Positions 18,156 to 35,709 of a stretch of 48,339 bases of DNA are shown piece by piece. The first letter of the stretch is position 1. Every line of letters begins with the position of its first letter. The translations under genes and the position numbers were made by a program. The notes under the pieces were generated by a model. The model had not been told where the DNA came from. It did not search any database and saw only the letters and a program-made list of their open reading frames with translations. This DNA comes from Sulfurovum sp. (GTDB lineage: Bacteria > Campylobacterota > Campylobacteria > Campylobacterales > Sulfurovaceae), in contig JALWHT010000118.1 of assembly GCA_026983515.1 (NCBI GenBank), positions 1-48,339 of the forward strand, written 5' to 3'.

Positions 18156-19787
18156 TTAAAAAAAGAGCAACTGAATGATATTCAGAATAAACATTGTAAT
18201 AAATCCTACTTTATAGACCATCATCTCATTACGCTCAATAAATGAAGTGTGGCGGTCAAAGTAGGGCTGTACTTTGTCAGGGTTGTCAATTTCATAAAGC
18301 ATTTCCGAATAGTTGTGGTAGCGCTTGTCCGGCTCAGTCTCGATGGCACGCAGAATCACACTCTCCAGCCAGTGCGGTATCTTCGGGTTGAGCTTACTCG
18401 GATGCTTGGCATCTTTCTCGAAACTCGGAGTCTGGAACGGTTCTATTTCTCCAAACGGGAACTTCTGTGTCAATGCCTCGTAAAGTGTCACTCCTATGGC
18501 GTAAATCTCTGTCTGCTCGGTAATCGGTGCCTGTTTGAAACGCTCCGGTGCAAGATAGGAAGGTGTTCCCGCCCGTGTTACTGTGGAGTAGGCTTCGGTA
18601 ATGCTGCCAAAATCAACCATTTTGAAAACAATCTTCTCTTTTCGTTTTGTCACAATGATATTTTCAGGCTTAATATCACCGTGTACCAGGTTGAACTTAA
18701 TGAGGTACTGCGACATCTTCAGTAAAAAGTGCGCCAGCTCCACCCCAAGGTCAACACTCAGTGGCTTTTTGGAAATATACTCTTTAAGGGAAACTCCCTC
18801 GATATAACGCATAATATAGTAACGGTGTGTCCGCTTTTTTGGAATGACCGCTTTTGGGAAAAAGCCGGCCTTTAAACGATTGGCCATCCAAACCTCTTTC
18901 ACAAAAAGATCCAGCATCACCTCATCGTCAATCGCTTCATGGGGTGCAAATTTAATCACATACTGCACCCCTTTCTTCTCACACAGCCAGGTTCTGTTGT
19001 TCTGTATCAACGGTTTGATAAGACGATAACCGTCTATCTCTTCACCCTTTTTATAGTGTTCCTGTATGATAAGGTCTGTTTGTTTAAGCTTCAATCTGGG
19101 ATCAAGCTCCTTTACCTCGATAACCACAGCAGTGGTATCGTCAGGCAGGTCATCGTTGTGCTTTTTGCTTGCTTTTTTCACCAGAAACGAAGCACCTACT
19201 TTGATACCATCGGCAAGTTCTTCGGAGGAAAGTTCATTGTATAGCCCGTCACTGCAGAGCAGAATGCAGTCTCCTGCCTGCAAATTGTTCTCGAAGTAGT
19301 ATGGTTCGACACTCTCTTCAAGCCCAATGGCTGCTGTCAGTACATTCTCCATCCCCTCCTCATCCATCGCATGATCGGAGGAGAGCTGAGCAAACTGTCC
19401 GTTACGAGAGAGGTAAATACGGCTGTCACCTACATTGGCACCATAAAGCCTGTCCCCTTCTATGACCACAAGTGTCAGAGTCGTCACCAGCTCCTGCCGT
19501 TCATACTGCTCCATCGACTCAAGGTAGAGTACCCGGTTGATATTCTCAATAAAGTGGCGAATGGATTTCTCCATACTCCAGCTTCTCGGACGGTTCTTCA
19601 GTGACTGCACCAGAAACTGCGCGGTACGCTTTGCTGCTTCGGCACCATGCATAGAAGAGCCAACTCCATCACAGACTACCGCAACAGTAATGTTCTCCAT
19701 CACTTTGACTTCAAAATAATCATCACCTTTAAGCTGAGTACCTTTGGCCAGCGTAAAGCCGCTGGTTTCAATATTTTCTTTAGACAT
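18156..19787 (-). CDS. Bifunctional PP2C-type phosphatase / Ser-Thr protein kinase, C-terminal TM
   Basis: PP2C: VVCDGVGSSMHGAEAAKRTAQ, GDSRIYL, DCILLCSDGLYNELS; kinase: HGDIKPENIIVT, MVDFGSITEAY, GTPSYLAPERF; terminal hydrophobic GFITMFILNIIQLLFF. Confidence 0.95.
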   Translation of the reverse strand: MSKENIETSGFTLAKGTQLKGDDYFEVKVMENITVAVVCDGVGSSMHGAEAAKRTAQFLVQSLKNRPRSWSMEKSIRHFIENINRVLYLESMEQYERQELVTTLTLVVIEGDRLYGANVGDSRIYLSRNGQFAQLSSDHAMDEEGMENVLTAAIGLEESVEPYYFENNLQAGDCILLCSDGLYNELSSEELADGIKVGASFLVKKASKKHNDDLPDDTTAVVIEVKELDPRLKLKQTDLIIQEHYKKGEEIDGYRLIKPLIQNNRTWLCEKKGVQYVIKFAPHEAIDDEVMLDLFVKEVWMANRLKAGFFPKAVIPKKRTHRYYIMRYIEGVSLKEYISKKPLSVDLGVELAHFLLKMSQYLIKFNLVHGDIKPENIIVTKRKEKIVFKMVDFGSITEAYSTVTRAGTPSYLAPERFKQAPITEQTEIYAIGVTLYEALTQKFPFGEIEPFQTPSFEKDAKHPSKLNPKIPHWLESVILRAIETEPDKRYHNYSEMLYEIDNPDKVQPYFDRHTSFIERNEMMVYKVGFITMFILNIIQLLFF

Positions 19788-20258: not shown

Positions 20259-21539
20259 CTATATGATCCCCCCTGCATTGGCACCCCAGGTAGTTCTCCA
20301 ACGGGTTTTAACAAGAGAGATGGCACCGATGGCGATGAGCACAAGTCCTGCAAAGATGAAGAAACCGACACTGTAGCTGTCAAATGTCCCTTTCGCCCAG
20401 CCAAGTGTTTTGACAAGGAACGTACCGCCGATCCCGCCGGCTGCACCGATGAGTCCTGTCATAATACCGATATCTTTACCAAAACGCTGCGGTACGAGCT
20501 GGAAAACTGCACCGTTTGCCATTCCAAGATTGGCCATGATCAAAAAGAGTACACCAATGGCAACCCAGAACGGAAGCTGTACCGCACCGCTGAGCGCCAC
20601 CAGTGCAGCAACAACACCAAAAAAGATGTAAAGTGCTTTGACCCCACCCATTTTGTCGGCAATACCACCGCCTACAGGACGCAACACTGCACCGGCAAAG
20701 ATGGTAAGGGCTCCAAAGTAACCGGCAATGACCTTGACATTCGGTTCATGGAAAACACTCAATCCAAAAGCACTCATATCTGCCTGATACGTATTCATCA
20801 GGTAGACTTTCATATAGTTCGCAAACCCTACAAATCCGCCGAAGCTGACAGCATAAAAGAGCATAAACCACCAACTGTCACGGTCTTTAAGCAGCTTCCA
20901 GTAATCACCCAGTTTTTTGGGACGCGGCTTGTAAACCGATTCAGGTGCATCTTTTGCCATTAAAATATAAATGATCAACACGATGAATGAGAGCAATCCT
21001 CCAACAAGGAATACTGCTTCCCATCCCCAAATTTCTGCGATTTTAGGTGCAAAAAGGAAGTCAACGACTACACCAATATTCCCCGCACCGGCAATACCGA
21101 GTACAATCCCTTGAAGCTTGGGTGGATACCATTGTCCTGCCTGCGGCAGTGCCACTGCAAAGGATGCACCGGCAAAACCAAGCCCAAGTGCAACAACCAG
21201 CAACTCATTATAGGTAATGCTCTCTCCCCTTGAATACGCGTAGAAAAGTGATGCAATCACGATAACCTGTGCAATAATGGCAGTTTTCTTCGGTCCAATC
21301 TTATCGACACCAAAACCAAGTACAATACGCAGCAGTGCTCCTGCCAAAATCGGGATAGAAAGCAAGGTTGCAATCTGTCCTGCACTCAATGCTGTACCGT
21401 GATGGGCCAGTGATTCATTAATCTCGGTTGCCAAAGGCCCGAGCATCGTCCATACCATAAAACTGAAATCAAAGTAGAGAAATGCCGCAAAAAGTGTCTT
21501 TGCATCTCCCTGTCCCTTAAGCGCCTTGAAGTTCGCCAT
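20259..21539 (-). CDS. NarK/NasA-type MFS nitrate/nitrite transporter
   Basis: 426 aa, about 12 TM; RIVLGFGVDKIGPKKTAI and GFAGASFAVALPQAGQWYPPKLQG..GIAGAGNIG motifs of nitrate/nitrite porters. Confidence 0.93.
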   Translation of the reverse strand: MANFKALKGQGDAKTLFAAFLYFDFSFMVWTMLGPLATEINESLAHHGTALSAGQIATLLSIPILAGALLRIVLGFGVDKIGPKKTAIIAQVIVIASLFYAYSRGESITYNELLVVALGLGFAGASFAVALPQAGQWYPPKLQGIVLGIAGAGNIGVVVDFLFAPKIAEIWGWEAVFLVGGLLSFIVLIIYILMAKDAPESVYKPRPKKLGDYWKLLKDRDSWWFMLFYAVSFGGFVGFANYMKVYLMNTYQADMSAFGLSVFHEPNVKVIAGYFGALTIFAGAVLRPVGGGIADKMGGVKALYIFFGVVAALVALSGAVQLPFWVAIGVLFLIMANLGMANGAVFQLVPQRFGKDIGIMTGLIGAAGGIGGTFLVKTLGWAKGTFDSYSVGFFIFAGLVLIAIGAISLVKTRWRTTWGANAGGII

Positions 21540-21606: not shown

Positions 21607-21623
21607 TGATTAATTTTTAATCA
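21607..21623. promoter_or_regulatory. Site A: 17-bp palindrome TGATTA-ATTTT-TAATCA
   Basis: Perfect 6-5-6 inverted repeat matching sites B, C and D. Confidence 0.85.
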
Positions 21624-21684: not shown

Positions 21685-21701
21685 TGATTATTTTTTAATC
21701 A
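21685..21701. promoter_or_regulatory. Site B: 17-bp palindrome TGATTA-TTTTT-TAATCA
   Basis: Perfect 6-5-6 inverted repeat; reverse complement is identical to the core of sites C and D. Confidence 0.88.
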
Positions 21702-21740: not shown

Positions 21741-21778
21741 GACACAGATTGAATAACGACAGGAGCAGCGTGATTATA

Positions 21779-23698
21779 ATGGAAGCATTAGCAAAAGCCA
21801 AAGAGGCAAGAAGCAAAAAGCTCAATAAAGTAGAAACGACCAAAGCACTCAAAGACCCAATGGAGATTTACAAGCATCTTGAATCAATTGCTGCAGCAGG
21901 CTACGAAGGACTAAGTAAAGAGGATTCCGCTTACTTTTTGAAGTGTTTCGGACTCTTTGACAAGGGTGAAGACTTTATGTTACGTGTGCGTATCCCCGGT
22001 GGGCAGCTGACCAACGCACAGGCGGTACGCATCGGTGAAGTAGCACAGGAGTACGGCAATGACTACATCGATATTACCACCCGTATGCAGGTGGAGCTGC
22101 GCTATTTGCAGATCGCAGACATTGCAAAGGTACTCAAGGCGCTTAAAGAGGTAGGCATCTCCACATTCCAGACGGGGGTGGATAACCCGCGAAACATCGT
22201 CACCGACCCACTTGACGGCATTGCTTATGACAACATCATCGAGTCTATGCCCATCTTGACGCAGCTTCAGGAGATTTTCCTCGAAAATCCCGAGTGGATC
22301 TCTGCCCTGCCGAGAAAATTTAATACCGGTATCCTGGGAAGCCTCAGCAACTCCTGCAATATCTTCGGGCATGACTGCAACTTCGTACTCGCCAACAAAG
22401 ACGGCAGCTTCGGCTTCAACGTCTATCTTGGTGCCCGTGTCGGTGTGCAGGCGCGTGATGCCGACCTCTTCGTTACTCCCGAAGAGGTACCCGTATTCTT
22501 TAAAGCGCTGCTGAACGTTTTCAAAACCTACGGCTACCGTGACAACCGGAACAAGAACCGCCTGCACTTCCTACTGCAGGATGTGGGCATCCCCGCGTTT
22601 ATAGAAGCGGTCAAAGAGGAGGCCGAACTCTCCTTTGCCCAAGGCGGCATGACACTGGTACAGTCACAAAACATCGCACTGGGTGCCAACCGCGTACTGC
22701 TTAAAAACGGCACCTACGCCTACAAGGTCATCGTCCCCTCAGGAATCTTCAGCGGTACAGACATGATCGCAGCGGCAAAAGCGGCACAGAGCTACGGCAG
22801 CGGCGACATCCGTCTCACCTACGACCAGAACCTTTTCATCATCAACATTGACAAAGAGAAGCTTGATACCTTTGAGAACAATCCGATCATTGCCAAGTAT
22901 GCCCAGTACAACAACCTCTACTTTCAAGATATGATCGCCTGTGCGGGGACACAGACCTGCAGCTACGGTGTTATCCCCAACAAACCTGATGCCATCGAGA
23001 TGGCGCACTTTCTTAACTCCGAAGTGCCCATCGCCAATGCCAACATACGCATGAACTGGTCAGCATGCCCCAAAGGGTGCGGAGTACACGGCATAGCCGA
23101 CATCGGCTTTGAGGGGTGCAAGGCAAAAGATGCTGACGGCAACCGTGTGGACGGGGTACACCTCTTTATGGGCGGCAAGATCACCCGGCAAGCCAAAGAG
23201 GCGCACATTTTACACAAGGCACTGCCGATCGACGAAGCCAAGCACCACGTCAAGTACCTGCTGAAAACCTACGCGGCATACAAAGAGCGCGGAGAGACCT
23301 TTGAGAGTTTTGAGACACGCTTTTTCAGTAAAAACTATAGCTATCAGGCGATCGGATTCTTTACCAAGATCAACTACATCCTCCGCGATAAACTGGGGCT
23401 GGATATAATGTTCGAACTTGACAAAGAGCCCAAAAGCGGACGCCGTGAGGAGTACGAACTCTTCACCTTCGGACTCAAACTCTTCAAACTCCTCACAGGA
23501 GAGAAGCGTTTTGCAGCTGTCACAGGACTCGCCCCAACCCTTGCACGTCCAAGAAAGATCAAACGGGATGAAGTCACCAGACTCAACCCGAAAGTCCCAC
23601 CAAAACTCTCTGAAGTCATCTACAACATGACGCATGAGAACAAAAGTGAGCGGGCGCAGGTCTTCTCGGAGTTGCTTGTGGCACTTAAAGAGGTGTAA
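21779..23698 (+). CDS. nirA: Ferredoxin-type nitrite (nitrite/sulfite) reductase
   Basis: Siroheme/4Fe-4S motif ACAGTQTCSYG ... NWSACPKGCGVHGIADIGFEGCK; start either 21779 (MEALAKAKEAR) or a nearby GTG. Confidence 0.88.
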   Translation: MEALAKAKEARSKKLNKVETTKALKDPMEIYKHLESIAAAGYEGLSKEDSAYFLKCFGLFDKGEDFMLRVRIPGGQLTNAQAVRIGEVAQEYGNDYIDITTRMQVELRYLQIADIAKVLKALKEVGISTFQTGVDNPRNIVTDPLDGIAYDNIIESMPILTQLQEIFLENPEWISALPRKFNTGILGSLSNSCNIFGHDCNFVLANKDGSFGFNVYLGARVGVQARDADLFVTPEEVPVFFKALLNVFKTYGYRDNRNKNRLHFLLQDVGIPAFIEAVKEEAELSFAQGGMTLVQSQNIALGANRVLLKNGTYAYKVIVPSGIFSGTDMIAAAKAAQSYGSGDIRLTYDQNLFIINIDKEKLDTFENNPIIAKYAQYNNLYFQDMIACAGTQTCSYGVIPNKPDAIEMAHFLNSEVPIANANIRMNWSACPKGCGVHGIADIGFEGCKAKDADGNRVDGVHLFMGGKITRQAKEAHILHKALPIDEAKHHVKYLLKTYAAYKERGETFESFETRFFSKNYSYQAIGFFTKINYILRDKLGLDIMFELDKEPKSGRREEYELFTFGLKLFKLLTGEKRFAAVTGLAPTLARPRKIKRDEVTRLNPKVPPKLSEVIYNMTHENKSERAQVFSELLVALKEV

Positions 23699-25584: not shown

Positions 25585-25822
25585 TTTCTTAATATTGAAC
25601 ATTGATTATGTAACTTCCGTTGTCACTTCTGCACTCTTTGTGCAGATGCTGTTGCGCCCATATGTGCGAAGCACGGCGCATAAAGCATCGCCCGCACAAT
25701 TGCAGAAGTGACGCTTTTTGCCTACTTTTTCTAAAAAAGTAGGAAAGAGACACAAAACGGTAATGTATGATTGAACTATCATAGGGGTATCTCTTGTGGC
25801 TACCCTCAATATGGAGAATAAT

Positions 25823-28138
25823 ATGAATCTCATAGACAAAGCAAAAAACTTTCTCGGTCTTGATATCAAAGCGGACAAATACGCCCTCGTCGACGACCCC
25901 ATCTTCGGCAAAGTCGCCAAAGCCAAAGCCCCTGACAAGTGGGTACGTAGCACCTGCGGCTACTGTGGTGTAGGTTGCGGCATGTACATCGGTGTTAAAA
26001 ACGGCGAAGCAGTCTACTCCAAAGGTGACTCTCTTCATCCGGTCAACATGGGTACACTCTGCCCCAAAGGATTAAGCGAGCATAGAATGGTACGTGCCGA
26101 CAATCGAATACCTACACCAATGCTCAAAACAAACGGTACGCTTCAGCCTGTTTCATGGGATGAGGCATTCAGCCATACCGCAGAAGAATTCAAACGTATT
26201 CAACAACAGCACGGCAAAGGTGCGGTTGCCGTGGTCTCTACTGGTCAACTACTAACAGAAGAGTTCTATGCGCTGGGCAAGTTTGTGCAGCTTGGGCTTG
26301 AAACAAACAACTATGATGGCAATACCACACTCTGTATGGCAAGTGCCGTCATGGGATACAAACAAACCTTTGGCTCAGATGGTCCTACCGGATGTTATGA
26401 GGACTTTGAAAAAGCAGACGTCATCATGCTTATTGGTGCTAATATTGCCGACAACCACCCTATTTTGAAACTGCATATTGCCAAAAACAAAAAAACCACA
26501 GGGAAAAAACCGACCATTATTGTTGTTGACCCCAGAAAATCCAAAACAGCACAGATGGCAGACATCTTCGTACCGCTCAAACCACGTTCAGATTTGGCGC
26601 TCATCAACGGATTGTGCTACATCATCATGGAACAGGGATGGGAAGATGAAAACTTCATCAAAGAGCGCACCAACGGCTACAGAGAGTTCAAAAAGCACAT
26701 CATGGAGAACTACCCGCCACAAGAGGTTGCTCACATCACCGGCATCGATGTCAAGGAGCTTTACAACCTTGCACGCATTTACGCCGGTGCGGATGCAGTA
26801 ATGAGTGCCTGGACCATGGGGGTCAACCAGAGTTCCATTGGTACCGATACGGTCTCTGCCATCTGTAACCTTGCACTCATCACCGGCAACCTTGGCAAAG
26901 AGGGCGCTTCACCTATGTCCATCACCGGACAGTGCAACGCCATGGGTACACGCGAGTTTGGCTTTACCTCATCCATCCCCGGATACCGCAACTACGCCAG
27001 TGAAAGTGACAGAAGAGAGTTTGCCAAGATCATCGGTGTATCCGAAGAGCTCATCCCCACTGCAAGAGGCTACGCCTACCCGCAGATCATCGATGCGATC
27101 AACCGCGGCGAGATCAAAGCGCTCTGGGTTGTTGCCACCAATCCACTGGTAAGCTACCCTGATCAAAACGGACTTAGAGAAGCACTCAAAAAACTTGACA
27201 TGCTTGTGGTACAGGATGCCTTCATGTCCGATACGGCACAAATAGCCGATGTGGTCTTCGCCGCAGCGACATGGAGCGAAAAAGAGGGTTGCTACACCAA
27301 CAGTGAGCGCCGCTGCAACTATGCCAAAAAAGCCATAGAACCCCTTGAAGATAGCAAGGCAGACTTCTACATTGTCAAAGAGTTCTCCAAATATTTCGGC
27401 GACAAACACGACCTGCTCTTCAAAAATCTCAATACCCCACGAGATACTTTCGAGGAGATCAAACGCGTCAGCAAAGGCAGACTCTGCGACTACAGCGGTA
27501 TGAGCTACGAACTCATTGAGGAGCTTGGCGGCATCCAATGGCCATGCAACGACAAAGCCCCCAAAGGCACCAAACGCCTCTACACAGAAGATATGCCATG
27601 CCCTACCCCTGACGGCAAAGCACAACTGCTTCCCGTAGAGTGGGTACCACTGAGTGAAATGCAGTGTAAAGGACTGCCGCTGATGCTTAACACCGGACGA
27701 ACAGTAGAACAGTTCCATACCCGTACCAAAACCGGTACCATCGGCATCCTCGATGCACTGGCTCCTGAAGCATGGGTAGACATCAGCCCCAAAGATGCCG
27801 CCAAACTCAAAGTCAAAAGCGGAGAGCGCATTGCCATTTCCGGAAACCGCGGGCGTGTGGAGGATGTCATCGTCAAAGTAAGTGAAACGGTAAGAGAAGG
27901 CAATATCTTCGTACCGTTCCACTTCAACGAACAGCTTATCAATGCCGTTACTATCCCCGAGTTCGACCCCAAATCATTCGAGCCAAACTACAAACAGTGT
28001 GCCGTGCAGCTACACTCCGAAGCGGTACCCGAAGGCATCGTCTATGAAGAGCTGGAAATCAGCGGCTATCTGGAGAATGTAAAAGTATACAAAGAGGAAG
28101 AGACGGCACAAAACGATATGTCCGTGGCAGAGGCGTAA
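25823..28138 (+). CDS. nasA: Assimilatory-type nitrate reductase catalytic subunit (molybdopterin oxidoreductase)
   Basis: WVRSTCGYCGVGCGMYIGV 4Fe-4S motif, NTTLCMASAVMGYKQTFGSDGP, AMGTREFG; no Tat signal; GGAG RBS before ATG 25823. Confidence 0.9.
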   Translation: MNLIDKAKNFLGLDIKADKYALVDDPIFGKVAKAKAPDKWVRSTCGYCGVGCGMYIGVKNGEAVYSKGDSLHPVNMGTLCPKGLSEHRMVRADNRIPTPMLKTNGTLQPVSWDEAFSHTAEEFKRIQQQHGKGAVAVVSTGQLLTEEFYALGKFVQLGLETNNYDGNTTLCMASAVMGYKQTFGSDGPTGCYEDFEKADVIMLIGANIADNHPILKLHIAKNKKTTGKKPTIIVVDPRKSKTAQMADIFVPLKPRSDLALINGLCYIIMEQGWEDENFIKERTNGYREFKKHIMENYPPQEVAHITGIDVKELYNLARIYAGADAVMSAWTMGVNQSSIGTDTVSAICNLALITGNLGKEGASPMSITGQCNAMGTREFGFTSSIPGYRNYASESDRREFAKIIGVSEELIPTARGYAYPQIIDAINRGEIKALWVVATNPLVSYPDQNGLREALKKLDMLVVQDAFMSDTAQIADVVFAAATWSEKEGCYTNSERRCNYAKKAIEPLEDSKADFYIVKEFSKYFGDKHDLLFKNLNTPRDTFEEIKRVSKGRLCDYSGMSYELIEELGGIQWPCNDKAPKGTKRLYTEDMPCPTPDGKAQLLPVEWVPLSEMQCKGLPLMLNTGRTVEQFHTRTKTGTIGILDALAPEAWVDISPKDAAKLKVKSGERIAISGNRGRVEDVIVKVSETVREGNIFVPFHFNEQLINAVTIPEFDPKSFEPNYKQCAVQLHSEAVPEGIVYEELEISGYLENVKVYKEEETAQNDMSVAEA

Positions 28139-30680: not shown

Positions 30681-30686
30681 TATAAT
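30681..30686 (+). promoter_or_regulatory. -10-like TATAAT for the regulator pair
   Basis: GTTTGATATAATGG, 60 bp upstream of ATG 30746. Confidence 0.55.
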
Positions 30687-30701: not shown

Positions 30702-30718
30702 TGATTATTTTTTAAGCA
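30702..30718. promoter_or_regulatory. Site E: near-palindrome TGATTA-TTTTT-TAAGCA, one mismatch to sites A-D
   Basis: Lies between the -10 box and the start of the regulator gene; flanked by a direct repeat TTTTAAGCATTA at 30689 and 30710 (21-bp period). Confidence 0.65.
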
Positions 30719-30745: not shown

Positions 30746-31480
30746 ATGGAAACATTTTATACAGATTCGCCGCAGGTTCAGCAAATTATTCAAGGATTGA
30801 ACCTGACCAGAACACTCTTTGTCTCTTCTATTGTCATAGGGGAACCCCATATTGGAAAGAAAACACTCGTGACACATCTCTTTCCCGATATTCCCGTTGT
30901 CTCAGGGAAAAATCAGGATGAAGTCGAAGCTATACTCGAACACTCTGACGAGCTGATCATTACCAATTTTGAAAAGCTTTCCAATAAAGAGAATCTCGTC
31001 TTCGACAACAAACGCATCATTGCCACAGCAGACTATATCGGTAACCAAAAGACTATCGACAGCTTATTTGCTTTTATCTATATGATGCCTACGTACAAAG
31101 AACGTCCTGAAGATCTCAAGCATCTTAAAACCCGTTTTCTTAAAGAGGCGGCAGCAACCTTGATGCTTGATGCATCATCCTACACACTTTCACAGCTTCC
31201 AACTGACCTGACACACAACAGCAAAAGTCTTAAACGTGCCATATACCATTACCTTATGAGCCGAAACATGAGTAAAAAAGAGATTGAAGAGACACTTTTT
31301 ACCTATTTTCTTGAACATCTTGAAGGCAACAACGGATACAAAGAGTATGTGGGAATGTATGAACGCCCACTAATCAAAGCTGGTCTAAAAAAGTATGGCT
31401 CACAGCTGAAACTCTCTGAAATTCTCGGCATCAACCGCAATACATTAAGGAAGAAAATCCATGAACACGCCATCGATTGA
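30746..31480 (+). CDS. Degenerate NtrC-like regulator: vestigial AAA+ domain without GAFTGA, C-terminal Fis-type HTH
   Basis: GEPHIGKKTL (P-loop-like), NKRIIATADYIG, YKERPEDLKHLKTRFL, C-terminal LKLSEILGINRNTLRKKIHEHAID; no receiver domain. Confidence 0.8.
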   Translation: METFYTDSPQVQQIIQGLNLTRTLFVSSIVIGEPHIGKKTLVTHLFPDIPVVSGKNQDEVEAILEHSDELIITNFEKLSNKENLVFDNKRIIATADYIGNQKTIDSLFAFIYMMPTYKERPEDLKHLKTRFLKEAAATLMLDASSYTLSQLPTDLTHNSKSLKRAIYHYLMSRNMSKKEIEETLFTYFLEHLEGNNGYKEYVGMYERPLIKAGLKKYGSQLKLSEILGINRNTLRKKIHEHAID

Positions 31481-32162
31481 TTTCCGCCCTTTTGTTGAAT
31501 GGGACAATAACCCCTTCATTCTTTTCGACCCAAAAGGAAAAATCCTCTACCTCAACAACAGTGCGGAGATCTTGCTTGGGTATGTTTCCAAGAAAGAGCT
31601 TTTCGATCTTGCACTTACCTACGCACCGCAAAATTTCGGCTATAAAACTACAAGTATTGCTCTGCGTTACGAAGCGTTCAATTTCTATTCTATCACGGTA
31701 GGATACGAAAACGAAGAGCAACTTGCCATACGTTTTTACAATGCTCCAAGACTCAGGAATCATACCCCTGTAGAAAAAGAGAAACTCACACTTACTGACA
31801 TTAACCTGCTACTTGAAGCCAATATTGCCCTGTTTAAAACAAAAAACAGCAATCCGCTGCAACTGTTGACCGATCCGGATATGCCACAGCTTAGAATCGA
31901 CCAGAACCGCTTTTCAAAACTGCTGCGTAAAGTACTCGAATCATTCCGCGCATCCGACTCCATACGCATTGAACTCAAACTCCTTGTCGGGGAGCATGTC
32001 ATTATCGATGAGCAAAAAATCTCCATTGCCCAGCTTTCTACTATGGCAAACGGACGCTATGTCGATCATGACAAGGAAATAAAAATACTTTCGGAAGAGT
32101 GCAATATCCGCAGTAACCTCCAAGAGTCCTCCATCAAACTTGAAATTCCACTGATTACATAG
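31461..32162 (+). CDS. Degenerate NtrB-like PAS sensor lacking a recognisable phospho-acceptor His box
   Basis: 20-bp overlap with the regulator gene; PAS FVEWDNNPFILFDPKGKILYLNNSAEILLGY; HATPase-like remnant SIRIELKLLVGEHVIIDEQKISI. Confidence 0.7.
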   Translation: MNTPSIDFRPFVEWDNNPFILFDPKGKILYLNNSAEILLGYVSKKELFDLALTYAPQNFGYKTTSIALRYEAFNFYSITVGYENEEQLAIRFYNAPRLRNHTPVEKEKLTLTDINLLLEANIALFKTKNSNPLQLLTDPDMPQLRIDQNRFSKLLRKVLESFRASDSIRIELKLLVGEHVIIDEQKISIAQLSTMANGRYVDHDKEIKILSEECNIRSNLQESSIKLEIPLIT

Positions 32163-32163
32163 A

Positions 32164-32182
32164 TTGATTAAAAAATAATCAA
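32164..32182. promoter_or_regulatory. Site C: palindrome TTGATTA-AAAAA-TAATCAA
   Basis: Perfect 7-5-7 inverted repeat upstream of the first amt gene. Confidence 0.88.
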
Positions 32183-32253: not shown

Positions 32254-33561
32254 ATGAAGTTAAAACTTTTCGCTTTACTGGCAGCGTTTATGCCAATTGC
32301 TGCTTTTTCGGCAGACAAACTCGACTCGGGTGATACGGCGTGGATGATGATCTCAACCGCACTTGTTCTCCTTATGACACCGGCAGGACTGGCACTTTTC
32401 TATGCAGGCATGTCAAGAAGCAAGAATGCGCTTAATACCTATGCTATGGTTATGGGTGCTTTCGTTCTGGCATTTGTTGTCTGGATTGTTGCAGGATACT
32501 CTCTTGCATTTGGAACAGCAGGAAGTGCTTTCGTTCAGAAATTTATCGGTGGTTTCGGTAATATCCTTCTGAGCGAAACTAAATGGTCAGACCTTAGCGG
32601 TACCTACCCTGCGTATGTATTTGTTGCTTTCCAAGGTACATTTGCAGCTATTACCGTAGCAATTGCATCAGGTTCAGTCATCGGACGAATGAAGTTCTCC
32701 ACCTGGATGATTATCGTAGCGCTCTGGGGTCTCGTGGTCTATGCACCAATCACACACATGGTATGGGGTGGAGACGGTGCCCTACTCTTTGATGCCGGTG
32801 CGCTTGACTTTGCCGGTGGTACAGTTGTACATATGAACGGTGGTCTTGCAGGTCTGGTTCTTGCAATTCTTGTAGGAAAAAGAGTCGGCTACCCAAAAAC
32901 AGCCATGAAACCGTTTAGCATTATTCTTACTGCAGCAGGTGCTGCCCTGCTGTGGTTTGGTTGGTACGGATTCAACGGCGGTTCCGCATTCGGTGCAAAC
33001 AAAATTGCCGGTCTTGCAGTTTTAACGACGACTGTTGCAACTGCTGCAGCAGGTGTTACCTGGCTGCTGCTTGAGTGGGCTATCTTTAAAAAGCCTACCC
33101 TTCTTGGCATTGCATCGGGTATCATTGCCGGTCTGGTTGCCATCACACCTGCGGCAGGATTCGTGTCTGTAGGAGGATCATTCATCGTTGGTATCGGTGG
33201 TGCAATCATTGCATTCTTCGGTGTTGTTACGCTTAAGAAAAAACTCGGTTACGACGACTCACTGGATGCCTTTGGTATCCACTTCCTTGCAGGTCTGTGG
33301 GGTGCTCTTGTTACCGGCTTGCTTGCACTCAACGACAAAGATCTTCTCTGGGACGGCCCGCTTAAAGAGAGTGGAGACAGAATTGGACAATTCATGGTTC
33401 AGGTTCAGTCTGTTGTCGTTGTCGGCCTCTGGACACTGATCGGTACTGTTATTGTTTACTATATTGCAAGTGCCCTGACAGGTGGTGCAAGAGTAGCAAC
33501 AGAAGATGAAGAGATCGGACTTGACGAGTCTGTTCATGGAGAAAGAGGAGTGAACCTTTAA
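32254..33561 (+). CDS. amtB: Ammonium transporter (Amt family), with signal peptide
   Basis: 435 aa; DTAWMMISTALVLLMTPAGLALFYAGMSRSKN, FAGGTVVHMNGGLAGLV, DDSLDAFGIHFLAGLWGAL. Confidence 0.96.
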   Translation: MKLKLFALLAAFMPIAAFSADKLDSGDTAWMMISTALVLLMTPAGLALFYAGMSRSKNALNTYAMVMGAFVLAFVVWIVAGYSLAFGTAGSAFVQKFIGGFGNILLSETKWSDLSGTYPAYVFVAFQGTFAAITVAIASGSVIGRMKFSTWMIIVALWGLVVYAPITHMVWGGDGALLFDAGALDFAGGTVVHMNGGLAGLVLAILVGKRVGYPKTAMKPFSIILTAAGAALLWFGWYGFNGGSAFGANKIAGLAVLTTTVATAAAGVTWLLLEWAIFKKPTLLGIASGIIAGLVAITPAAGFVSVGGSFIVGIGGAIIAFFGVVTLKKKLGYDDSLDAFGIHFLAGLWGALVTGLLALNDKDLLWDGPLKESGDRIGQFMVQVQSVVVVGLWTLIGTVIVYYIASALTGGARVATEDEEIGLDESVHGERGVNL

Positions 33562-33594: not shown

Positions 33595-33939
<345 letters not shown>

Positions 33940-34035: not shown

Positions 34036-34054
34036 TTGATTAAAAAATAATCAA
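34036..34054. promoter_or_regulatory. Site D: palindrome TTGATTA-AAAAA-TAATCAA
   Basis: Identical 19 bp to site C, upstream of the second amt gene. Confidence 0.85.

Positions 34055-34174: not shown

Positions 34175-35709
<1,535 letters not shown>

Follow-up and report, generated by a model that had tools for sequence, protein, structure and literature searches.

A stripped bEBP descendant and its PAS partner as candidate regulators of nitrogen assimilation in the Campylobacterales

Genes and palindromic sites at the locus

The window, i.e. the whole analysed stretch of 48,339 nucleotides, comes from a metagenome-assembled genome whose close relatives carry the label Sulfurovum. At 30,746–31,480 (forward strand) it contains an intact open reading frame for a regulator of 244 amino acids, here called REG, which consists of an AAA+ remnant with a P-loop (G32–L41) and a Fis-type HTH (residues 196–243) and in which all motifs cited in a preliminary description of this DNA were found. 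The end of REG is overlapped by 20 bp (31,461–31,480) by the start of a second gene (31,461–32,162, forward) that encodes PASB, a PAS protein of 233 amino acids in which no kinase domains were found with Pfam.

The pair is followed on the forward strand by two genes for AmtB-type ammonium transporters, assigned to this family by sequence inspection, and by two genes for PII proteins (GlnK/GlnB), in the order amtB1 (32,254–33,561), first PII gene (33,598–33,939), amtB2 (34,175–35,347) and second PII gene (35,368–35,709); the genome as a whole gave two P-II matches. On the 5' side of REG lie a divergent DUF234 gene and a thiI gene and then a nitrate-assimilation cluster with a NarK-family nitrate/nitrite transporter (20,259–21,539, reverse), a NirA-like ferredoxin-nitrite reductase (21,749–23,698, forward) and a NasA/NasC-like molybdopterin oxidoreductase, the assimilatory nitrate reductase (25,796–28,138, forward), which probably belongs to the same cluster. 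Both amtB genes, narK and nirA are putative targets of the regulator. At the border of this cluster, narK is adjoined by a gene that joins a PP2C-type phosphatase part to a Ser/Thr kinase part (18,156–19,787, reverse).

Several of these genes are preceded by a palindrome of 17 bp. Exact copies of TGATTAAAAAATAATCA stand 5' of amtB1 (32,165–32,181, 72 bp from the amtB1 start) and 5' of amtB2 (34,037–34,053), and two more exact copies, 78 bp apart, lie between narK and nirA (21,607–21,623 and 21,685–21,701); several other genomes preserve a spacing of 76–78 bp for this latter pair. A copy with one mismatch, TGATTATTTTTTAAGCA, is found 5' of REG itself (30,702–30,718), just 3' of a -10-like TATAAT (30,681–30,686), and might serve as an autorepression site. 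With up to two mismatches allowed, the window contains nine matches against 3.2 expected, a number reached by none of 100 shuffles. In the assembly of 1.85 Mb the exact form TGATTA-N5-TAATCA occurs five times, four of them in the window, and the reversed control does not occur at all. The fifth exact site (L121:1501-1517) precedes the gene of a CoxB-like membrane protein of 195 amino acids, which is itself located 3' of clpB. In G215 a site is followed by the gene of a similar protein, for which a CoxB match was obtained, and similar genes come after sites in L181 and L213.

REG is related to bEBPs that act with sigma54

When REG alone was scanned with Pfam, just HTH_8 (2.3e-6) and HTH_50 (1.2e-6) were matched, both above cut-off and within residues 196–243; in NCBIfam, Fis and the C-terminal part of NtrC matched below threshold. 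The origin of the N-terminal part becomes visible with a family profile built from 38 members, which matched Aquifex NtrC1 with a whole-sequence E-value of 3.5e-12 in two blocks, comprising residues 2–47 with the P-loop and residues 105–176 with the lid. The stretch between the blocks amounts to about 57 residues in the REG family versus about 111 in NtrC1, from which it follows that the segment bearing GAFTGA is gone; accordingly, no GAFTG-like string was found in any REG homolog of the loci examined. No receiver match was obtained for REG either, whose 244 amino acids start at the P-loop block. Of the two models proposed for an HMM search in the preliminary description, HTH_8 matched REG; Sigma54_activat (PF00158) did not match the REG of the window by itself and was found individually in 23 of the 38 members (E <= 0.01).

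Within the P-loop, G37 is kept in all 38 members and the lysine K38 in 37, whereas the position of the Walker-B glutamate is occupied by F, I or L in 38/38 and that of the aspartate mostly by Asn. As the P-loop lysine is kept and the Walker-B glutamate site is hydrophobic, REG likely binds nucleotide (ATP) without hydrolysing it. In the HTH, N230, R231, T233, L234 and K237 are invariant. The preliminary description had reported traces of the AAA+ activator fold, a clear Fis-type HTH, a replaced Walker-B DE and the lack of both GAFTGA and a receiver domain, and each of these readings is borne out here. Taken together, the sequence matches support the view that REG descends from a bEBP, the ancestor being either NtrC proper or another bEBP. 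Fis is a stand-alone nucleoid protein of about 98 amino acids and matches the C-terminal part of REG alone, whereas REG has 244 amino acids and carries the AAA+ remnant. Two AlphaFold models obtained from shallow alignments were unusable (mean pLDDT 51 and 33), and a PDB fold search with the first of them gave no result.

Distribution and conservation of REG

Within the genus, 70 of 78 genomes carry REG. An order-wide search gave a match in 229 of the 329 Campylobacterales genomes sampled, or in about 228 after removal of G180; draft-genome gaps affect all presence and absence counts given here for REG and PASB. The match in G180, an f7 genome without REG, is a different, full-length NtrC-type response regulator of 452 amino acids (L120:1474-2829, reverse) with a receiver, an intact Walker-B DE and no GAFTGA. 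Orthologs with an intact GAFTGA or receiver domain, which the preliminary description had named as the finding that would speak against it, were not met with, since every homolog read had the stripped form. Third codon positions account for 52 of 60, 67 of 78 and 117 of 161 differences between REG and close relatives, and they also hold most of the differences in PASB. REG is therefore not a chance reading frame, given its presence in 70 of 78 genus genomes and the bias towards the third codon position, a pattern by which it is under purifying selection.

The loss of the sigma54 machinery noted in the preliminary description is thus real, although it is not specific to the source organism; it extends across the order and includes genomes that bear RpoN. 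In detail, no Sigma54_DBD (RpoN) match was found in the genome itself, and this domain was above cut-off in just 4 of the 78 genus genomes, three of which carry REG. G077 and G015 retain RpoN alongside REG, for which reason loss of RpoN was rejected as the cause of the stripping. In G071 (C86:1428-2158) and G072 (C11:99574-100306), REG is broken by TAG stops, which represent either pseudogenes or assembly errors.

The genomic context of REG varies. In many families it is placed directly 5' of a fabD-type gene, behind which comes a nucleosidase-like or NAD-synthase-like gene, and PASB is found elsewhere (L067, L069, L074, L076, L078, L082, L084, L085, L087, L088; the fabD identity was confirmed with NCBIfam for L067). 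In f7 genomes (L073, L117), which we infer to be Arcobacter-like, REG is directly 5' of glnD, the gene of the PII uridylyltransferase (identity confirmed for L073), with amtB nearby and, in L073, also glnK. A division into two paralogous clades, one on the amtB side and one on the fabD side, was considered and dropped, as there is mostly one copy per genome, and neither the pairing with PASB nor the sites differ between the two.

PASB as the partner of REG

Members of the PASB family are about 205–275 amino acids long when called by the first start codon. PAS models alone matched, in 6 of 27 members, and Pfam found no GHKL/DHp histidine-kinase-like domains in the members; on visual impression the tail resembles a HATPase remnant. 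PASB was found in 226 genomes of the order, two of them marginal (G247, G255). Among the 329 genomes, 224 have both genes, four have REG only, none has PASB only and 101 have neither, counts that ignore phylogeny. All four genomes with REG only are fragmented assemblies (G158, G170, G224, G357), and joint absence is scattered (e.g. G059, G280, G119, G177 and several f7 g15 genomes). Even where the genes are unlinked, with REG beside fabD and PASB elsewhere, the two occur together. P-II is present in almost every genome that has the pair and also in many without it, so the bond between REG and PASB is closer than that of either to PII. PASB is an obligate co-occurring partner of REG. The regulatory unit is larger than first read and includes PASB and a predicted ammonium, glutamine-synthetase and nitrate regulon.

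Position of the sites relative to promoters

In the genus, nearly every genome has 1–7 sites (3–4 per genome), whereas the reversed control occurs about four times across all 78 genomes. The distance from site to start has a median of 70 bp at amtB1 and amounts to 70–74 bp at glnA, 66–75 bp at a porin-like gene and 14–35 bp at REG, glnA and the porin-like gene having been identified by sequence inspection; further mapped sites lie 5' of amtB2, narK and nirA. In other families, sites are found 5' of glnK, amtB, narK, nirA and glnA.

These sites show a fixed relation to the promoter. The best sigma70-type -10 sits 28–34 bp 3' of the palindrome in 72 of 112 target promoters, a count that did not exceed 23 in any of 300 shuffles, and in 67 of the 112 the distance is exactly 31 or 32 bp. 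Since the -10 stands 31–32 bp 3' of the palindrome, the centre of the latter comes to lie near -52, a position that would suit an activator at an ordinary promoter. At the REG gene, by comparison, the palindrome overlaps the -10 or follows just 3' of it, and this location suggests that REG represses its own gene.

The same location could be taken to mean that REG represses the nitrogen genes in general until nitrogen limitation relieves the repression, and the disappearance of the classical activation machinery, together with hydrolysis and the sigma54 loop, would fit such a function. At the target genes, however, the sites are fixed 31–32 bp 5' of the -10, which suits activation and not blocking, and we regard general repression as unlikely. 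The small stripped REG appears instead, from the placement of its predicted sites, to turn on genes for ammonium, nitrate and glutamine synthesis at ordinary Campylobacterota promoters, with PASB as a likewise reduced, sensor-like partner.

Covariation of site and recognition helix

The NtrC box, TGCACCAnnnTGGTGCA, is 17 bp long (PMC8743547), and the palindrome described here is a 17-bp dyad of equal geometry with different half-sites. A reading as an FNR/CRP site was rejected on the half-site spacing known for those regulators. Across the order there are 1.65 sites per genome with REG versus 0.20 without it, the control being 0.20 versus 0.13, and the number of sites tracks REG also when genera are compared (57 versus 20, p 4e-6); both comparisons ignore phylogeny. 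The co-occurrence of orthologs and palindrome, proposed earlier as a check, is thus observed.

In lineages without TGATTA enrichment, a palindrome of the same length, TGTATA-N5-TATACA, stands 5' of amtB, glnK and REG. It occurs 24 times in the stretches around these genes, where loci partly overlap so that distinct sites are somewhat fewer, whereas two scrambled versions do not occur in the same stretches, and none was found in the checked amtB/glnK stretches of three related f7 genomes without REG. In the TGTATA lineages, N232 of the recognition helix is replaced by I, V, A or T, changing NRNT to mostly NR[I/V/A]T. An exact TGATTA site is present in 34 of 44 genomes with N232 and missing in ten, as compared with 1 of 8 genomes that have another residue at 232 and no T at 235 (Fisher p 9e-4, phylogeny ignored). 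The rule is not a single-residue code, because f14 combines the helix NRVTLTK with TGATTA sites. Other variants of the same length occur 5' of REG or amtB, namely TGCTTA-N5-TAAGCA, TGCCTA-N5-TAGGCA and the hybrid TGCCTA-N5-TAATCA (L072, L081, L063, L066).

This covariation is the strongest support here for REG as the probable binder of the palindrome, which the preliminary description had proposed as its natural candidate; the sites 5' of REG and the relation between site number and REG point the same way. Another regulator might still bind the palindromes, REG being a mere bystander of nitrogen genes, since sites without a detected REG are present in G035, which has four, and in a few incomplete genomes. 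That possibility is improbable, more so than general repression, as the site changes together with the recognition helix, stands 5' of the REG gene itself, tracks REG in number and has the NtrC-like dyad geometry expected for a Fis-type HTH dimer. Finally, that REG is a decaying, functionless NtrC relic of a sigma54-less lineage, as the missing loop, receiver and catalytic residues, the absence of RpoN from the genome itself and the in-frame stops in G071 and G072 could suggest, is hardly credible for a gene that is conserved at full length in about 228 genomes, changes mostly at third codon positions, keeps its HTH residues invariant, is tightly paired with PASB and is present in genomes that keep RpoN.

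Proposed mechanism and related systems

We therefore favour, with a probability of roughly 0.74, the interpretation of REG and PASB as a nitrogen-assimilation regulator of the Campylobacterales that combines sigma70 activation through the palindrome, autorepression and control by contact with PASB. A REG dimer would bind TGATTA-N5-TAATCA, or TGTATA-N5-TATACA in several other lineages, and from near -52 would activate amtB, glnK, glnA, narK/nirA and the porin gene without the mechanism of sigma54 remodelling, while binding at or just 3' of its own -10 would repress REG. Contact with PASB, not phosphorylation, would control REG, and PASB would probably sense nitrogen status by way of either PII or a small ligand, in a manner that resembles NifL-NifA to some extent.

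NifA itself is, unlike REG, a sigma54 activator. As a pair of a PAS protein and a bEBP without phosphotransfer, NifL-NifA may nevertheless be, by analogy, the nearest model for REG and PASB, with the difference that NifL has recognisable GHKL/DHp domains and PASB, by Pfam, has none. In NifL-NifA, which serves nitrogen control, the PAS protein controls the bEBP by stoichiometric contact without phosphorylation (PMC12998174).

An NtrC without GAFTGA that acts at sigma70 promoters, the precedent invoked in the preliminary description for Rhodobacter capsulatus, is indeed established, for this organism and for Caulobacter, with the receiver kept (PMC10274813). REG resembles these proteins as a bEBP-derived, predicted nitrogen regulator without the sigma54 loop and with putative sigma70 promoters. 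They differ from REG in that they have a receiver, activate only after aspartyl phosphorylation and work with the kinase NtrB, whereas in REG more of the AAA+ domain is missing and the partner is a PAS protein lacking a kinase. Targets of E. coli NtrC include glnA and amtB/glnK. REG shares with that protein the Fis-type HTH and resembles it in the 17-bp geometry of its predicted dyad site and in a putative regulon including these genes, but E. coli NtrC has a receiver, GAFTGA and a hydrolysing AAA+ domain and acts with sigma54. The half-site is TGCACC for E. coli NtrC versus TGATTA for REG (PMC8743547). Among the best PDB sequence matches was VpsR of Vibrio cholerae (7v2b, E 3.3e-9), like REG a GAFTGA-less bEBP. 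VpsR differs from REG by its receiver domain and its biofilm regulon. Presumably it is the same protein as a GAFTGA-less V. cholerae regulator, spelled VspR, that is described as independent of phosphorylation (PMC10274813). On these sequence comparisons, REG would be an order-wide variant among the GAFTGA-less, sigma70-acting bEBPs.

A more far-reaching and tentative reading, to which we give somewhat less than even odds, is that REG and PASB form a 'post-two-component' system, i.e. an ancestral NtrBC-like pair minus kinase, receiver and sigma54 machinery, which has stayed locked together, reaches much of the Campylobacterales and signals nitrogen status by direct contact to sigma70 promoters.

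The genome of Arcobacter butzleri was reported to contain no NtrBC or RpoN homologs (PMC2147049). Our literature search, of incomplete coverage, found no earlier description of REG and no nitrogen-assimilation regulator described for Campylobacterota. The present analysis names a candidate order-wide nitrogen regulator for the Campylobacterales together with its partner, site and regulon, all of which are directly testable. In addition, the REG family may provide a natural series on the way from an ATP-driven sigma54 activator to a plain sigma70 regulator, and its pairs of helix and site a natural set for the study of DNA recognition by Fis-type domains.
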